22,302 bases of DNA from a virus. This document shows, in pieces, positions 5,127 to 15,061 of this stretch. The first letter of the stretch is position 1; each line of letters begins with the position of its first letter. The DNA lies in the IMG/VR virus record IMGVR_UViG_3300046009_007297, positions 1 through 22,302 of that record, one strand, 5' to 3'. The notes beneath the pieces were generated by a model. The model worked only from the letters and a program-made list of their open reading frames with translations. It ran no database searches and was not told the origin of the DNA. A program made the position numbers and the translations under genes.

Positions 5127-5645
5127 TTAACTGAATTCTAATTGGTTTCTTAAAGTTGCGTATGCTATTCTGGATTGTAGTACAAATGTGGACTCGGGTG
5201 CTGATATTGTTGCGTTACCAGAAGGTCCGTTTATCATAGTACTTTGCATTACTGTTGCTGTTCCTGTACTGCCCCCAATATCAATACTCTGTCTACCACT
5301 GGCATCTTGTCTTGATATTGGTTCTAATAATTTAACCATTCTACCTAATAGTGCCGTTTGGTCACTCAAATATTGTAGAGTTTCTTGTGATGCAGGAGTA
5401 TATTGGTTTTCTAAAAATATCTGCAAACTATCACTATCACTCATTAGTGATGTATTATATGTTAATGTTAATACATTACCACTTATAGTTCCCCCATAGT
5501 TAGGGTCTGCGAAGTTATAAATAATAAGATTATCGGTTACATTTGTTATAATTAATAGCTGTTGTAATGATATTGCTTCTGATGTGTTAAATGTGATTTG
5601 CTTTGCAGCCGCATTAAATGTATAATCTTCAAATAATATTTTCAT
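5127..5645 (-). CDS. Structural protein of fibre module, 172 aa
   Basis: The N-terminal 85 residues are predominantly beta (ITFNTSEAISLQQLLIITNV, GGTISGNVLTLTYNTSL). A helical segment follows (ETLQYLSDQTALLGRMVKLL, about residues 88-108), and the C-terminal part is Gly/Ser-rich and polar. From memory, small proteins with this DQTALLGRMVKLLEP segment occur next to fibres in marine T4-like phages, but I cannot name a function. The start ATG (5645) overlaps the stop of the 64-aa gene upstream as ATGA, so the two are probably translationally coupled. It ends 3 nt before the 938-aa gene. A trimeric adaptor that joins fibre proteins would fit, but this is inference. Confidence 0.65.
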   Translation of the reverse strand: MKILFEDYTFNAAAKQITFNTSEAISLQQLLIITNVTDNLIIYNFADPNYGGTISGNVLTLTYNTSLMSDSDSLQIFLENQYTPASQETLQYLSDQTALLGRMVKLLEPISRQDASGRQSIDIGGSTGTATVMQSTMINGPSGNATISAPESTFVLQSRIAYATLRNQLEFS

Positions 5646-6561: not shown

Positions 6562-6774
6562 TTATTGGTTTATTTTGGAATGATATTCTTGTAATTTATA
6601 TGCTAAATCGTATATTAATTCAACCATATTGCCACTAAATGTGGAATTTTTTATAAGGGTTAATAAAAATTCTATTTCTTGTTTTGATAAATCTATAGAA
6701 TGAGTAACAACAGCAGGAAGTTCTGGTTGTTTTTGAGAAGAAATAATATTTAGATTAGATGCATTAAAAGCCAT
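6562..6774 (-). CDS. Small hypothetical protein, 70 aa
   Basis: I chose ATG 6774 (MAFNASNLNIISSQKQPELP). The frame stays open upstream to ATGs at 6801 and 6837, but the 6837 start would overlap the end of the 628-aa fibre gene and both longer forms would place TATTTATA inside or immediately before the gene. The body is soluble, with a helical segment SKQEIEFLLTLIKNSTFSGN and a second helix MVELIYDLAYKLQEYHSKIN at the C-terminus. From memory, the run 'LSKQEIEFLLTLIKNSTFSG' recalls small conserved proteins of marine T4-like phages with unknown role. If ATG 6837 is used, the extra N-terminus (FLKINIFIGMVTYLKKLF) would be hydrophobic, which changes the prediction. Confidence 0.6.
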   Translation of the reverse strand: MAFNASNLNIISSQKQPELPAVVTHSIDLSKQEIEFLLTLIKNSTFSGNMVELIYDLAYKLQEYHSKINQ

Positions 6775-6804
6775 AAACAGTTTTTTTAAGTATGTTACCA
6801 TACC

Positions 6805-6812
6805 TATAAATA
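6805..6812 (-). promoter_or_regulatory. TATTTATA motif between 628-aa fibre gene and small gene
   Basis: The coding strand reads TATTTATA, 9 nt after the stop of the fibre gene and 30 nt before ATG 6774 (3 nt before the alternative ATG 6801). The spacing to 6774 is longer than at the other copies. Promoter function is inferred from recurrence. Confidence 0.35.
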
Positions 6813-6821
6813 TGTTAATTT

Positions 6822-8708
6822 TTAAGAATAAATCCAAATACTTTCATCTCCACTTGAAACATAAATATTACCTACGGCATTGTACCGGGTTGCGGGGGAT
6901 GGAGTAGTACCTGCTGCTGTAACAACTGCGGCCATAAATGCATCTGGTGTGAATCCAGCTTGGTTAGCACTAAATGAACTTGTAATACCCCAACGTAAAG
7001 TATTTGTAGCATCCCATCCAAAAGCTTCACCAACACCTTGTGAACCGGATTGTTGAATTACAATACCACCATCACCGCTTGGCGAAGTACCTGATCCTGA
7101 GGCTAATAGTATGAATCTATCAGCTACTAATAAGTTTGTGGTCTCTTGGAAAGAAGCGGTACCTATTACTGTTATATCTTTATTAAATACTACGTTACTC
7201 GCAAATGTTGTCGTTCCGGAAGTATTTCCAATGTTTAATGCTGTTGAGGCTCCACCTGCAAAGTTAACTGTTGTTGCGGTTCCATTTACTAAGTTAAAAG
7301 TAGTTGAGGTTGTTGTTATATCACCACCATTTACTGCTAAATCACCTGTTAATGTTGTGTTGCCTGTTACTTGTAAAGTACCTGCTATTGTGCTACTACC
7401 ACCGATAGTTTCATTACCTGTTATATGTAAAGTTGATCCTGAAATATTACCTGATGCTGATATTGCTGATCCGGTTAAAGCACCGGTTAAAGTAGTTGCA
7501 CCTGTTACCCCTAATGTGCCTCCTATGGTAGCATTACCAGTTGCAGTTAATGTTGTACCTAATAAACCAGCTGATGAACTAATAGCTCCAGATGCGGTGA
7601 TAGTTGTAGTTGTTATAGCGCCGTTTGCTGTTAATCTACCAGTTAATGTAGTAGCACCGGAGTTTGTTAATGTACTGCCGTCAAATGTTAAATTAGCTTC
7701 ACCATTTATTGTTCCACCACCGGTTGCAGTTAATACTCTATTATCAGTATTATTTGTTATAGCAGGAAATATATTTGAAGCAGTTAGAGCATTTGTTGCC
7801 CAAGATGATGTTCCAAATAATGAACCTGTAATGCCACTTGAAGCAGATATTATAGAAGCAGTAACAGCACCTGTAAATGTTGGTGATGCAGAAAATACCA
7901 AAGTACCTGTTCCGGTTTCATCCGTTACTGCAGCTGCCAAATTTGCCGAAGATGGAGTGCTTAAGAATGTTGCTACACCTGTGCCCAATGTTTGAGTTGC
8001 CACCCTATTTGAAGATGTGATAACTAACATGGTGCTTGAAAGAGCACCTACGGCCAATTGGTTAGCTAGTGTAAGGGTTTGAGCGTTTACAGTTACAGTA
8101 TCAGCGCTTGCATCACCTAATATGGTTGAACCGCTAACTGTTAGCCCTAATGATAAATCAGCTGATCTTGCATATATATCTCTAACATATACTTGATTAA
8201 ATCTTAAACCGGAGTTTACACCTATGTTTACAGTATCAGTTGTGTTTGGAGCTAATATTTTAGAAACAGTGATTCTATCATTGATGCTATCGTAGCTAAG
8301 ACCTCCAGAACCAGTAAACTTACTTTTACCTATTGGTGTAGTCCAGTAAAGGAACTCTCCACTTGATGCGGTTACAGCAGCTCGAACAGTAGCTGCAGAA
8401 TTACCATCATAGGTAAAATCTTCTATACCGTCTCCAGCAGTTAAGTCTTGTAAATTTACACTTAAACTACCACTAAATGTTCCTGTAAAAGAACCGCTAA
8501 AAGAACCCGTTAATACTGAATTAGTACCAGTTGAAGTTATATTGGCACCGCCAATTGCTAAAGTAGTTCCGTCATAGGTTAATCCACTATTTTCAATTTG
8601 GCCGACATTGCCCGCGATAAGTAAATTATCATTTGTTAATACTGATGATGTTATTCCAGTTAAGTGTGCATTACTACCGGATACAATGACTTTTTTCCAA
8701 GTTGCCAT
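6822..8708 (-). CDS. Large tail-fibre protein with trimeric-fibre repeats, 628 aa
   Basis: The N-terminus MATWKKVIVSGSNAHLTGIT matches the 144-aa mini-fibre. The middle includes FLSTPSSANLAAAVTDETGT and SGITGSLFGTSSWATNALTA. About residues 340-520 are a long run of Thr/Gly/Ala-rich repeats (TIGGTLGVTGATTLTGALTG, TIAGTLQVTGNTTLTGDLAV), typical of elongated trimeric beta shafts. The C-terminus (LLVADRFILLASGSGTSPSG, GDGGIVIQQSG, GNIYVSSGDESIWIYS) resembles, from memory, the end domain of structural fibres in T4-like cyanophages. It should be a long fibre attached at the baseplate or neck. It starts with ATG 21 nt after TATTTATA. The low stop-codon density of these repeats also leaves a long spurious frame on the opposite strand. 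Confidence 0.8.
   Translation of the reverse strand: MATWKKVIVSGSNAHLTGITSSVLTNDNLLIAGNVGQIENSGLTYDGTTLAIGGANITSTGTNSVLTGSFSGSFTGTFSGSLSVNLQDLTAGDGIEDFTYDGNSAATVRAAVTASSGEFLYWTTPIGKSKFTGSGGLSYDSINDRITVSKILAPNTTDTVNIGVNSGLRFNQVYVRDIYARSADLSLGLTVSGSTILGDASADTVTVNAQTLTLANQLAVGALSSTMLVITSSNRVATQTLGTGVATFLSTPSSANLAAAVTDETGTGTLVFSASPTFTGAVTASIISASSGITGSLFGTSSWATNALTASNIFPAITNNTDNRVLTATGGGTINGEANLTFDGSTLTNSGATTLTGRLTANGAITTTTITASGAISSSAGLLGTTLTATGNATIGGTLGVTGATTLTGALTGSAISASGNISGSTLHITGNETIGGSSTIAGTLQVTGNTTLTGDLAVNGGDITTTSTTFNLVNGTATTVNFAGGASTALNIGNTSGTTTFASNVVFNKDITVIGTASFQETTNLLVADRFILLASGSGTSPSGDGGIVIQQSGSQGVGEAFGWDATNTLRWGITSSFSANQAGFTPDAFMAAVVTAAGTTPSPATRYNAVGNIYVSSGDESIWIYS
7798..7863 (-). repeat. 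Fibre cassette repeat, copy in 628-aa fibre gene
   Basis: Closest match of the 66-bp cassette to the copy at 6150-6215, located about 305 codons into the 628-aa fibre gene and preceding a different downstream sequence. Confidence 0.8.
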
Positions 8709-11378: not shown

Positions 11379-11398
11379 ATATTAACTGGCTGGTTTAC

Positions 11399-11406
11399 TA
11401 TAAATA
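11399..11406 (-). promoter_or_regulatory. TATTTATA motif inside a palindrome before phoH-like gene
   Basis: The motif ends 20 nt before ATG 11378 and forms the centre of an inverted repeat TTTACTA / TAGTAAA (11394-11411; seven-base stem, four-base loop). It follows the capsid-gene terminator by about 65 nt, where a new promoter is needed. This is the best-placed of the six copies. Confidence 0.5.
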
Positions 11407-11470
11407 GTAAATAGTCTATTTTCCTACCTGTATCTTAAATCACCGCAATCCCAAATTCGCCAAATTTTTC

Positions 11471-11499
11471 TTTAAAAGAAAAGAGCCCCGTAGGGCTCT
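11471..11499 (-). terminator. Rho-independent terminator after the major capsid gene
   Basis: Twenty-one bases after the capsid stop, the coding strand forms AGAGCCC-TACG-GGGCTCT (11482-11499), a perfect seven-base stem with a UNCG-class tetraloop, followed by TTTTCTTTT. This is a textbook intrinsic terminator and the strongest one in the window. Confidence 0.92.
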
Positions 11500-11520
11500 C
11501 ATCTCTTTAATGTGCACTAA

Positions 11521-13140
11521 TTAGACTGTTGCCAAATCAGATACAAAAATCTTACCATAAAATTCTGGACGAATCATTTTCTTAGCGTAACGAGTCATCA
11601 AACCTTTCCTTGGTGTGAAAGTGTTTGGATCGTATACAAGAGGTGTCATCATTAATGGAATATATGGAGCATAAACTGCACCTGTTTCTAAGAATTGAGA
11701 TCCTCTAAAGCCCATTAAGATAATGTTCTCTGTAAAGTATGGATTCTTGTAAACTCTAAATCTAGAGTTCAAGGAACCTACCTTTTGTACGCCCATTGCA
11801 AAATCCATCTTATCTCCGTTTGTTTCCGCAGCATATCCTGGAATAGATTCTAAAATAGTTGCTACTGAAGGAGAACATACTAAGAAATTAGCACCTCCTC
11901 TTAAGGTCTTCTGGTGAATCTTGTTAGATACTTTCTGGACTTTAGTTCCTAAAGTCTGGAACCATTGTCCTTGTGTATTGTAGTATCCTGGACTATTAAC
12001 TACCCAAGCATTACCATCCCATACTCTGTTACTTACAGCAGACCACTTCTCAGTAGTTCTAGCATCAGAGATTAACATATCTAAAATTTCTAAATCAATC
12101 TCAGCAGAGATATACTCAGATAGAGTAGAAGTTAATTCCGCCTCGGCATCAATAGAATGGTATGCATTCAAATCTTGAGCAAATTCAGGAGTCCATTGTG
12201 CTTTTAACTTACGTGTTTTAGCAACAATAGCTTGCGATTTTAACTCAACGTTAATTTCTGGAATTGTAATTGAATTGGCTGGATTATCTTCAAAATCACC
12301 TCTTGAATTATCAGCGGGCTGTAAAGAATACACGAGAGATCCGGAGACTGAACCTCCGCCAATATTCGTAGGTCTTGCGATTACAAATTGAAATACACTA
12401 CCTGTAATTTTAGTGTATTCGGGGTAAATACTTACACGGTTCGAAACAGTCGGTATTGTAGCTGTACCTGTATTTGATCCTGAATGGAATTGGAAAGATC
12501 TTACGGCTAATGAATCAAATCTAGTGTTAATTCCTGTTGAACCTGTAGGAATGGTTAATTTAACTGCAGTAGATAATAATCCGATAGAACCAGAATCGTA
12601 ATTAATGTCTGCAATAGTTAACGAACCTGTAGTAGCAGCTGCAGCGCTGGGACCAACGCTTGCTGTTAATTCGTTTAAAGAGTATCCATATCGACCTACT
12701 CCATAAAGACCATCATTAGCGTCAACATCTAAGGTATCGAGTGTACCGTACATCGAATTGTTAGATGCAAAAGGTGATACATTAGTTCCGTATTTGAAAT
12801 CTAAATAGAATACAAGACCGGAAGGTAAATTCATAGGTTGTACGCTAACAAATTCCTTTGTCGAAAGTTGGGCAAATACTTTTCTTACGAGAGGTAATGC
12901 AACACCGGCCCATTGTTCAGCGGAAAAGCTATTACTACCTATAGTAGCAGTACCGGTTGAGGATTGTTCAGCAACGATGCCTTTAGCTTGATTTTCAAGG
13001 ATCATTGCCATATTGTTTCGGTCCGTAGAGGACTCTAGACCTTCTAAAAGGCCTGTTCTTTGCCATTTTTTGGCAAGTCTGCTGGCTTCGTCTTGGAGAT
13101 TTTTCCAAGGATTGGCAGTTTCTAAAAGTTGGTTTATCAT
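11521..13140 (-). CDS. Major capsid protein (T4 gp23-like), 539 aa
   Basis: The N-terminus carries the T4 gp23 family signature: KKWQRTGLLEGLES (24-37), NMAMILENQA (43-52), then the transition SFSAEQWAGVALPLVRKVF and FVSVQPMNLPSGLVFYLDF (97-115). Length (539) is close to T4 gp23 (521). Family knowledge says gp21 protease removes an N-terminal propeptide after (I/L)xE-type sites; candidates here are LLE (31-33), ILE (47-49) and the IVAE region (55-58). The middle contains Ser/Gly-rich insertions, plausible as the variable surface domain. It forms the hexameric capsid lattice. The gene is followed by a strong terminator and has no gp24-like vertex gene next to it. Confidence 0.93.
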   Translation of the reverse strand: MINQLLETANPWKNLQDEASRLAKKWQRTGLLEGLESSTDRNNMAMILENQAKGIVAEQSSTGTATIGSNSFSAEQWAGVALPLVRKVFAQLSTKEFVSVQPMNLPSGLVFYLDFKYGTNVSPFASNNSMYGTLDTLDVDANDGLYGVGRYGYSLNELTASVGPSAAAATTGSLTIADINYDSGSIGLLSTAVKLTIPTGSTGINTRFDSLAVRSFQFHSGSNTGTATIPTVSNRVSIYPEYTKITGSVFQFVIARPTNIGGGSVSGSLVYSLQPADNSRGDFEDNPANSITIPEINVELKSQAIVAKTRKLKAQWTPEFAQDLNAYHSIDAEAELTSTLSEYISAEIDLEILDMLISDARTTEKWSAVSNRVWDGNAWVVNSPGYYNTQGQWFQTLGTKVQKVSNKIHQKTLRGGANFLVCSPSVATILESIPGYAAETNGDKMDFAMGVQKVGSLNSRFRVYKNPYFTENIILMGFRGSQFLETGAVYAPYIPLMMTPLVYDPNTFTPRKGLMTRYAKKMIRPEFYGKIFVSDLATV

Positions 13141-13166
13141 AATTTTATTAGTTTAAAATGTTAGAA

Positions 13167-13283
13167 TTAAGCTTTACGTTTACCTGGCATAGTTTCTTTA
13201 CCTGTTCCAGGTTTTTTATGAGTTCCAGGTTTTTGAGTTCCGGGTTTTTGAGTTCCGGGTTTTTTAGGGGTTACTACTGGCAT
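13167..13283 (-). CDS. Tiny basic KPGT-repeat protein, 38 aa
   Basis: The frame runs from ATG 13283 to TAA at 13167-13169. The peptide is dominated by four Lys-Pro-Gly-Thr units (KKPGTQKPGTQKPGTHKKPG) and ends MPGKRKA. It has no acidic residue except one Glu and is strongly basic. It lies 30 nt after the scaffold stop and 26 nt before the capsid start, in the middle of the head operon, and its leader (ACATAAAACAT before ATG) matches that of genuine genes here. I recognise no T4 counterpart. A DNA-binding internal head protein, or a partner of the highly acidic scaffold, would fit the charge, but both are inference. The repeats at DNA level (TTTTTGAGTTCCGGG on the plus strand) suggest growth by slippage. 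Confidence 0.65.
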   Translation of the reverse strand: MPVVTPKKPGTQKPGTQKPGTHKKPGTGKETMPGKRKA

Positions 13284-13313
13284 ATGTTTTATGTTTAGAG
13301 GTTAATAATAAAT

Positions 13314-14318
13314 TTAAATAGGTTTTTTAATTCCGGCTAAAATTTGGAATCTGTTTATTACGTCAGTAGATAGTACATCAACGCTTTCTGTAATAACTCT
13401 TTTAGGAGCATTACCTGTGGGTCTAGATGCAAATCCTCTACTTTCGTTTACTTTTACTTTTGCTTTAGATGATAAACTACTATTAGTTGATTCATATACT
13501 AACTTAGCTTCAGCTGTAGTAGTAGCTTTATCAAATGAAGCCATGATATTAACTACCTGAGATTCAGATAATGAATGATTTTTCATTAACTTACTAAGAT
13601 AGAGTAGTTTAGCGTTAAGCAAGTTCACTTCTGTCAAGTCTCTTTTTAGAGTGTTAATTGTCTTTAATGCTTCTGTTAATTGACGATTCTGTTTGTTTGA
13701 TTTTTCATTTCGAGTTCTGAAAGATTTTAGTTCTTGTAGAATATCTTCTATATCCGGTTCTTCTTCGTGGGATTCATGTGTTGGTTCATCTTCAATTTCT
13801 TCTAATTCCAACTCTGCTAAGAGTTCTTCTAAGTTAATATCATCAGAATCTTCCATATTGCTCTCCATACCGCTTTCTGTTCCGGATTCGACATCACCTT
13901 GTGGTTGAATTCCCATTGCTTGAAGTTCATCCCGAACTGCTTTTGCGATAAAAGATTCTAACTCCGGTATATCCATATCTCCTACTTCTATATCAGTCTC
14001 TTCGTCTTCAGGTTTTTCATCTTCAGGCATTTCGTCTTCAGGCATTTCGTCTTCAGGCATTTCGTCTTCAGGCATTTCGTCTTCAGGCATTTCGTCTTTA
14101 GGTTTTTTACTACTTTTTTTAGCTTCTTTCTTCATTTCTTTTTCCTCTTCCGTAATTTTGTCTTCTTCCTCTAGTTCGTTTAATTTGTTTGCAATTAATT
14201 TACTTAGTCTCGGAGTTATTGTCTCTTCTAATGCAGCTTTGGCATTTGCAATAGCGGCCTCACGGACTGCTTTAGCTTCAGCAATAGCCTCTTTAAATAA
14301 AGTTGAATTACTTTCCAT
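13314..14318 (-). CDS. Prohead scaffold/core protein (T4 gp22-like), 334 aa
   Basis: Order of parts: an Ala/Glu/Lys helix (1-54), a Lys-rich hinge (60-74), a tandem acidic PEDEM repeat (73-105), an acidic linker (140-190), a long coiled-coil helix (about 191-245), and a C-terminal segment ending NRFQILAGIKKPI that recalls the end of gp22-family proteins. Position between protease and capsid gene matches T4 gene 22. It should form the internal core that shapes the prohead and is then destroyed by the gp21-like protease. At 334 residues it is longer than T4 gp22 (269), partly through the acidic repeat. A hairpin-rich 149-bp gap precedes its start, so its expression may be set separately from the protease. 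Confidence 0.85.
   Translation of the reverse strand: MESNSTLFKEAIAEAKAVREAAIANAKAALEETITPRLSKLIANKLNELEEEDKITEEEKEMKKEAKKSSKKPKDEMPEDEMPEDEMPEDEMPEDEMPEDEKPEDEETDIEVGDMDIPELESFIAKAVRDELQAMGIQPQGDVESGTESGMESNMEDSDDINLEELLAELELEEIEDEPTHESHEEEPDIEDILQELKSFRTRNEKSNKQNRQLTEALKTINTLKRDLTEVNLLNAKLLYLSKLMKNHSLSESQVVNIMASFDKATTTAEAKLVYESTNSSLSSKAKVKVNESRGFASRPTGNAPKRVITESVDVLSTDVINRFQILAGIKKPI
14001..14105 (-). repeat. 15-bp tandem repeat inside the scaffold gene
   Basis: Seven consecutive 15-bp units encode (K/M)P(E/K)DE. Four central units (14031-14090) are identical on the plus strand (TTCGTCTTCAGGCAT), and the outer three differ by one to four bases. The period of 15 keeps the reading frame, so copy-number change would only lengthen or shorten the acidic arm. 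Confidence 0.95.
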
Positions 14319-14339
14319 AATTTAAGGGGTTTAATGTTG

Positions 14340-14358
14340 TACGTTTATTTTAAACGTA
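14340..14358 (-). other. Perfect 8-bp inverted repeat upstream of scaffold gene
   Basis: TACGTTTA-AAA-TAAACGTA on the coding strand: eight paired bases and a three-base loop, 21 nt before the scaffold ATG. It could be an mRNA 5' hairpin or a protein-binding dyad. No T tract follows, so it is not a typical terminator. Confidence 0.6.
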
Positions 14359-14363
14359 ATATA

Positions 14364-14397
14364 TTTTTAAATAAATAAATACCGTAAGTGACGGTAT
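14364..14397 (-). terminator. Terminator-like hairpin between protease and scaffold genes
   Basis: ATACCGT-CACTT-ACGGTAT (14379-14397) forms a seven-base stem with a five-base loop on the coding strand and is followed by TTATTTATTT. The T tract is interrupted, so termination may be partial. It sits about 70 nt after the protease stop and would lower read-through into the scaffold and capsid genes unless a promoter lies between. Confidence 0.6.
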
Positions 14398-14467
14398 ATT
14401 TCAGTAATAGATAGTTGGTGTATTTACTAAAGTCTACCTTTATATATGTATATGGTAAATTTTAATA

Positions 14468-15061
14468 TTATTTATTACCTGTTAAGTATAATAAGTCTGT
14501 TACAATACTGTGGGCTCTTATATACTTTGCAATAAATTGCTTATTTTCATTTAATGAAACAGGCTTCATGAAAGCTCCTCTAGTTGAAGGATTTGAAACA
14601 AAATCCCAACAGACAAGTTCAAAATCATCTTGAACTCTTAAATATCCCTCGTTTGTTTCTTTTACCGTACCTGTACCTCTTGAAGATATACCGATGGTAT
14701 GACCTCCTCTTAGGATTTCTTTGACTATATTTCCCGAAGGAGTATTTAGAAGTTCTAATCTACCTAATAATTCTTCATCCTCCCACCAGAGAGATTTTAC
14801 TACGTGAGAAGCATTCTTTAAATTAACTACCGGAGAATCTGGGTGATCTAGTTCACCGTATGCATTTCCGTTCTGTACAAATTCTTTTATGTATTTGTCA
14901 ACTTCTCGTTTCAGTATACTCATATCGTATACTCTCCCGTTTTGATTTTTATCACCTGCCCTCTGTACAACACCCTCTACTTCGAAAACTCCAGGCTTAG
15001 TTTTTGATTCTACTAAAGTTCCATTAAAAACGGAATACTCGGTTAACATCGAATTGGTCAT
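14468..15061 (-). CDS. Prohead core protease (T4 gp21-like serine protease), 197 aa
   Basis: The herpes/T4-type prohead protease signature is present: catalytic His in GELDHPDSP (His73) and catalytic Ser in GHTIGISSRGTG (Ser126/Ser127). The N-terminal GVVQRAGDKNQNGRVYDMSI is the family's beta-rich entry region. Length (197) is near T4 gp21 (212). It would digest the scaffold and trim the capsid protein during head maturation. The ATG overlaps the stop of the 157-aa gene as ATGA, so expression is coupled to the upstream prohead genes. A TAA stop is followed by 149 bp of noncoding sequence. Confidence 0.92.
   Translation of the reverse strand: MTNSMLTEYSVFNGTLVESKTKPGVFEVEGVVQRAGDKNQNGRVYDMSILKREVDKYIKEFVQNGNAYGELDHPDSPVVNLKNASHVVKSLWWEDEELLGRLELLNTPSGNIVKEILRGGHTIGISSRGTGTVKETNEGYLRVQDDFELVCWDFVSNPSTRGAFMKPVSLNENKQFIAKYIRAHSIVTDLLYLTGNK

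Follow-up and report, generated by a model that had tools for sequence, protein, structure and literature searches.

The window, by which we mean the whole stretch of 22,302 nucleotides of viral DNA that was analyzed, is, judged by its sequence, part of the genome of an uncultured phage related to Flavobacterium phage immuto. Its genes follow the T4-like order portal, protease, scaffold, major capsid protein (MCP) and PhoH. Matches to PHROG 213 (portal), PHROG 207 (protease) and PHROG 138 (MCP) identify a T4-type head cluster (20-21-22-23). The elements around the scaffold-MCP junction are as follows.

11521 to 13140, minus strand: gp23-like MCP gene (PHROG 138 major head protein, E = 1e-71; 62.8% identical to the immuto MCP)
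13141 to 13166, minus strand: leader of the MCP gene, 26 nt
13167 to 13283, minus strand: KPGT-repeat ORF, 38 aa, ATG to TAA (in-frame codon log-odds and start context)
13204 to 13264, minus strand: 3.9 copies of a 15-nt tandem unit (AAACCCGGAACTCAA type), translated as K-P-G-T-Q/H units
13284 to 13313, minus strand: leader of the KPGT ORF, 30 nt, A-rich and lacking a Shine-Dalgarno site, like other gene leaders of the window
13314 to 14318, minus strand: gp22-like scaffold/core protein gene (position, acidity, and an N-terminus and a C-terminus, the latter with LAGI, conserved with sister phages)
14001 to 14102, minus strand: acidic DEMPE repeat within the scaffold gene, 15-nt unit, 6.8 copies
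14468 to 15061, minus strand: gp21-like prohead protease gene (PHROG 207, E = 3e-53)

The ORF between the scaffold and MCP genes encodes a strongly basic 38-aa peptide, MPVVTPKKPGTQKPGTQKPGTHKKPGTGKETMPGKRKA, with four KPGT units. It begins 30 nt after the scaffold gene and ends 26 nt before the MCP gene. Rereading of the sequence bears out these features of the original prediction, together with its statement that T4 has no gene at the equivalent place, where 18 nt separate genes 22 and 23. The peptide contains nine lysine, one arginine and one glutamate residues, giving a net charge of +9, as well as seven prolines, and its N- and C-terminal ends lie outside the repeat. Common gene callers have a floor of 90 nt. 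At 117 nt the ORF is therefore not strictly too short for routine gene callers, and the earlier claim to that effect is doubtful.

A number of observations suggest that the ORF is translated. Scored against the window's own genes, the codon log-odds is +21.5 bits in the KPGT frame, compared with −10.5 to −45.5 bits in the other five. The opposite strand also carries an open frame here, of 46 aa, but its codon score is −16 bits. Synonymous codon preference fits that of the window's genes with a nominal P = 0.0004, a value that is overstated because the repeat units are not independent. The genes of the window have A-rich leaders without Shine-Dalgarno sites, and in a start-context model trained on 17 gene starts the ATG of the ORF scores 3.97, better than 99.7% of 369 other ATGs and level with the best true genes. 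Within the KPGT cores all differences among units are synonymous (CCC/CCT and ACT/ACA), an extra AAA codon in the repeat preserves the frame, and the sole amino-acid change between units is Q/H in the spacers. In 173 nucleotides of random sequence, the coding strand would contain an ATG-initiated ORF of at least 38 aa with P about 0.01–0.02, but openness alone is weak evidence because the 15-nt tandem repeat itself keeps frames open. In codon usage and start signal the ORF resembles the neighboring genes, and in all probability a genuine gene encodes the basic peptide.

The peptide matches no protein family described in the profiles and sequences searched. No homologue was found in PHROGs, Pfam, PDB or by phage blastn, nor by phage tblastn, although low-complexity filtering in tblastn may hide a query of this kind. 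DNA patterns were used to scan IMG/VR for KPGTxKPGT(xKP), MPGKRKA-stop and MPVVTPKK, corresponding to the repeat, the C-terminus and the N-terminus. These scans gave no diverged homologue, and recovered only a near-identical contig, L086; the other matches were rejected as unrelated proteins, other frames of other genes, or chance. Bacterial genomes yielded three short, chance-like frames. Comparison with the records of 33 relatives produced no match, a weak result that lacks a positive control. One might consider that a cationic peptide of this kind acts on the host, at nucleic acid, membrane or a defense system, and is merely located in the head operon, as are many phage accessory genes. According to a review, small phage proteins often target the host (PMC11323111), and restriction to one lineage is compatible with an arms-race gene. 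Yet the gene occupies a late position, the peptide has no defined fold or hydrophobic stretch, and there is no similarity to known effectors in PHROGs, Pfam or PDB, so we consider a host-directed function improbable.

The scaffold-MCP gap is 173 nt in the window. Across 109 distinct relatives among the matches listed its median length is 28 nt, and none of those 109 loci has an inserted gene in the gap. Closer relatives were recovered in a scan with the 286-aa neighbor protein, giving a sister clade with portal proteins about 85% identical and MCPs 87–89% identical; a further scan with an alignment added no sister. The four sisters whose contigs include the junction (L099, L100, L101 and L104) lack the KPGT ORF there and have spacers of about 30 nt. 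The sister contigs extend to at most 11 kb, and absence thus applies to the scaffold-capsid junction, a copy elsewhere in the genomes being possible. A single gap value of 110 nt comes from L099, in which a frameshift at about 5245–5265 interrupts the scaffold gene, such that the ORF ends ...LLYLHLRK and the C-terminal part lies in another frame; its real spacer is about 33 nt, and the frameshift may be either a sequencing error or real. The only other copy of the KPGT ORF is that in L086, which matches the window at 99.97% identity over 11.3 kb and shows no difference within the ORF. On that comparison L086 is the same phage, and so is uninformative on selection.

The ORF is therefore not found at the same place in relatives, and does not behave as a conserved head-operon gene of the group. 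The original prediction had suggested that such genes may be widely missed, and had proposed searching the equivalent gaps for small KPGT-type frames. None is present in the 109 scaffold-MCP gaps among the matches listed, and with gaps of only about 28 nt in these relatives, and about 30 nt in sisters with 88% MCP identity, there is no gene there to miss. Since relatives lack the gene at this place, the comparison identifies it as a recent, lineage-specific accessory addition rather than an overlooked part of head building.

The location directly upstream of the MCP start, and the seven prolines and nine lysines among 38 residues, could also be read in terms of a cis element. On this account the ORF would be a short Pro/Lys-rich leader or spacer that tunes how the capsid gene, 26 nt downstream, is translated, and the peptide itself would be irrelevant. 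However, RNA structure is not significant (z = −1.08), the MCP genes of relatives lie behind a spacer of about 30 nt with no leader ORF, and the MCP gene in the window has its own normal leader. We regard a cis-acting role as quite improbable. The 26-nt MCP leader has a loose likeness to the whole 28–33 nt scaffold-MCP spacer of the sisters, but as a guide to descent the alignment is suggestive only and not significant, with a best P of about 0.1.

A less easily dismissed alternative is that the ORF is a near-neutral proto-gene, i.e. a tandem-repeat insertion that is open and translated by chance and is tolerated in the spacer with no selected function. The ORF is a low-complexity 15-nt repeat, the neighboring scaffold gene has a 15-nt slippage repeat as well, the peptide is without homologues, and it is confined to a single lineage, being missing from sisters at 88% MCP identity. 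Against this, the start context is well formed and the MCP gene retains a normal leader, the codon usage resembles that of established genes, the ends of the peptide are non-repetitive, and phage genomes are compact. On balance we think the near-neutral origin somewhat less likely than a young accessory gene, to which it is a close rival. We tentatively prefer a young, lineage-specific small gene whose product would be a disordered polycation with an accessory role in or near the head.

The sister L104 has a free-standing homing endonuclease gene between MCP and phoH (6664–8037, plus strand; PHROG 3339, E = 4e-101); in T4 the corresponding position, following gene 23, is occupied by segD. Only the last homing endonuclease codons are left in the window (11379–11520, minus strand; RIWDCGDLRYR-stop) and in L100 (8539–8705). 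By its sequence the remnant in the window is what a homing endonuclease gene left behind when it was lost, and an intrinsic terminator lies next to it. The leader of the scaffold gene (14319–14420, minus strand) contains TACGTTT-N5-AAACGTA, a perfect hairpin, together with a terminator-like stem (ATACCGT...ACGGTAT); both are kept in four sisters, among which there are no compensatory changes. A different conserved basic peptide of about 42–46 aa, ending K/R-x-YRGQGR, is encoded about 3–4 kb upstream of MCP in seven relatives (L017 at 376, L019 at 222, L033 at 288, L036 at 3, L038 at 722, L045 at 404 and L050 at 591, all plus strand). We rejected it as a counterpart of the KPGT peptide, as it is absent from the window and differs in place and sequence.

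The positive charge of the peptide had led to the suggestion that it partners the scaffold or is a packaged DNA-binding peptide, the second of which may or may not hold. The scaffold is indeed acidic and repeat-bearing, with the DEMPE tract described above. The corresponding gene of immuto (MW353175.1, 125626–126867) is labeled 'DNA polymerase phi-like protein', apparently a misannotation resulting from acidic low-complexity sequence. Pairing by charge predicts that scaffold acidity and the peptide should co-occur, but the sisters contradict this. Their scaffolds, with net charges of −41 to −47 and no KPGT peptide, are equally or more acidic than that in the window (−39). Co-expansion of the acidic scaffold with the peptide was therefore rejected, and the proposed partnership is weakened. 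Because the sisters keep intact head genes without the peptide at this place, it is unlikely to be an essential scaffold partner, while an accessory electrostatic role is possible.

We compared the KPGT peptide with known small head proteins. The gp22 core of T4 takes up various internal proteins that the phage can do without, and lysines of internal proteins contact packaged DNA (PMC9026906, PMC3012670); by analogy, association of the KPGT peptide with DNA is plausible. Like IPI, IPII and IPIII, which are packaged from the prohead core, it would be a small, accessory protein, made late and variable among related phages, and what it would have in common with them is contact of its lysines with packaged DNA. 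The internal proteins carry an N-terminal capsid-targeting propeptide that is cleaved by gp21 at L/I-x-E (PMC9026906). The 38-aa peptide, by contrast, has no L/I-x-E or A/V-x-E prohead-protease site and no recognizable T4-type capsid-targeting peptide, although the MCP and scaffold of the window have several L/I-x-E sites. It is therefore not a classical T4 internal protein, and it is also shorter, built of a low-complexity repeat and without sequence homology to them. The small core proteins gp67 and gp68 of T4 are likewise encoded in the head operon near gp20–gp23, but T4 cannot do without these parts of the core, and gp21 cleaves gp67. In the operon the KPGT gene has another place, from which it is missing in the sisters.

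A 37-aa ORF in L091, MGKLKGTQRVKPAAAPAKPGTKKPGTKKPKPKPAKE, is another short Lys/Pro-rich KPGT peptide; its start site is good, and it is flanked by two genes in the neighborhood of capsid genes. It differs in belonging to an unrelated high-GC phage head operon and in having a Shine-Dalgarno start. The compositions are alike but homology is not demonstrable, and at best the sequences point to convergence. A further parallel is with orphan small genes in the spacers of T4-related phages, which are similarly lineage-specific ORFs between core genes. Insertions in intercistronic spacers are part of the ordinary mosaicism of T4-related genomes (PMC2993671). The KPGT gene is likewise ordinary phage mosaicism, though its place and composition are unusual; the 22-23 position was occupied by an insertion in 0 of 109 loci among the matches listed.

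A possible course of events for a young accessory gene can be outlined. A module of about 140 bp, comprising the ORF with its own leader, would have entered the scaffold-capsid spacer in one immuto-like relative of T4. The gene would be co-transcribed with the head genes and translated from its own Bacteroidota-type start. Its product would be a disordered Lys/Pro polycation, probably extended by in-frame slippage of the 15-nt unit, and the gene is likely to be accessory and dispensable. Made in bulk beside scaffold and MCP, a lysine-rich peptide might stick electrostatically to DNA or the acidic core, and could become trapped in the head like the T4 internal proteins. The most specific form of this proposal, a newborn polycationic head peptide, grown from a repeat in a single lineage, that either becomes part of the acidic prohead core or covers the packaged DNA, we consider rather doubtful.

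The analysis corrects a plausible over-reading, in that the most conserved stretch of the T4-type head operon hides no widely missed small gene. It provides instead a clearly delimited example in which a short accessory gene entered a core spacer of about 30 nt, and for which the sisters, with 88% capsid identity, represent the 'before' state. Should the peptide be present in virions, it would show that a simple repeat can give rise to a head peptide that is packaged. If it is indeed a newborn head peptide, the locus would capture a moment in the acquisition, by T4-type phages, of internal head proteins that lack a classical capsid-targeting propeptide.
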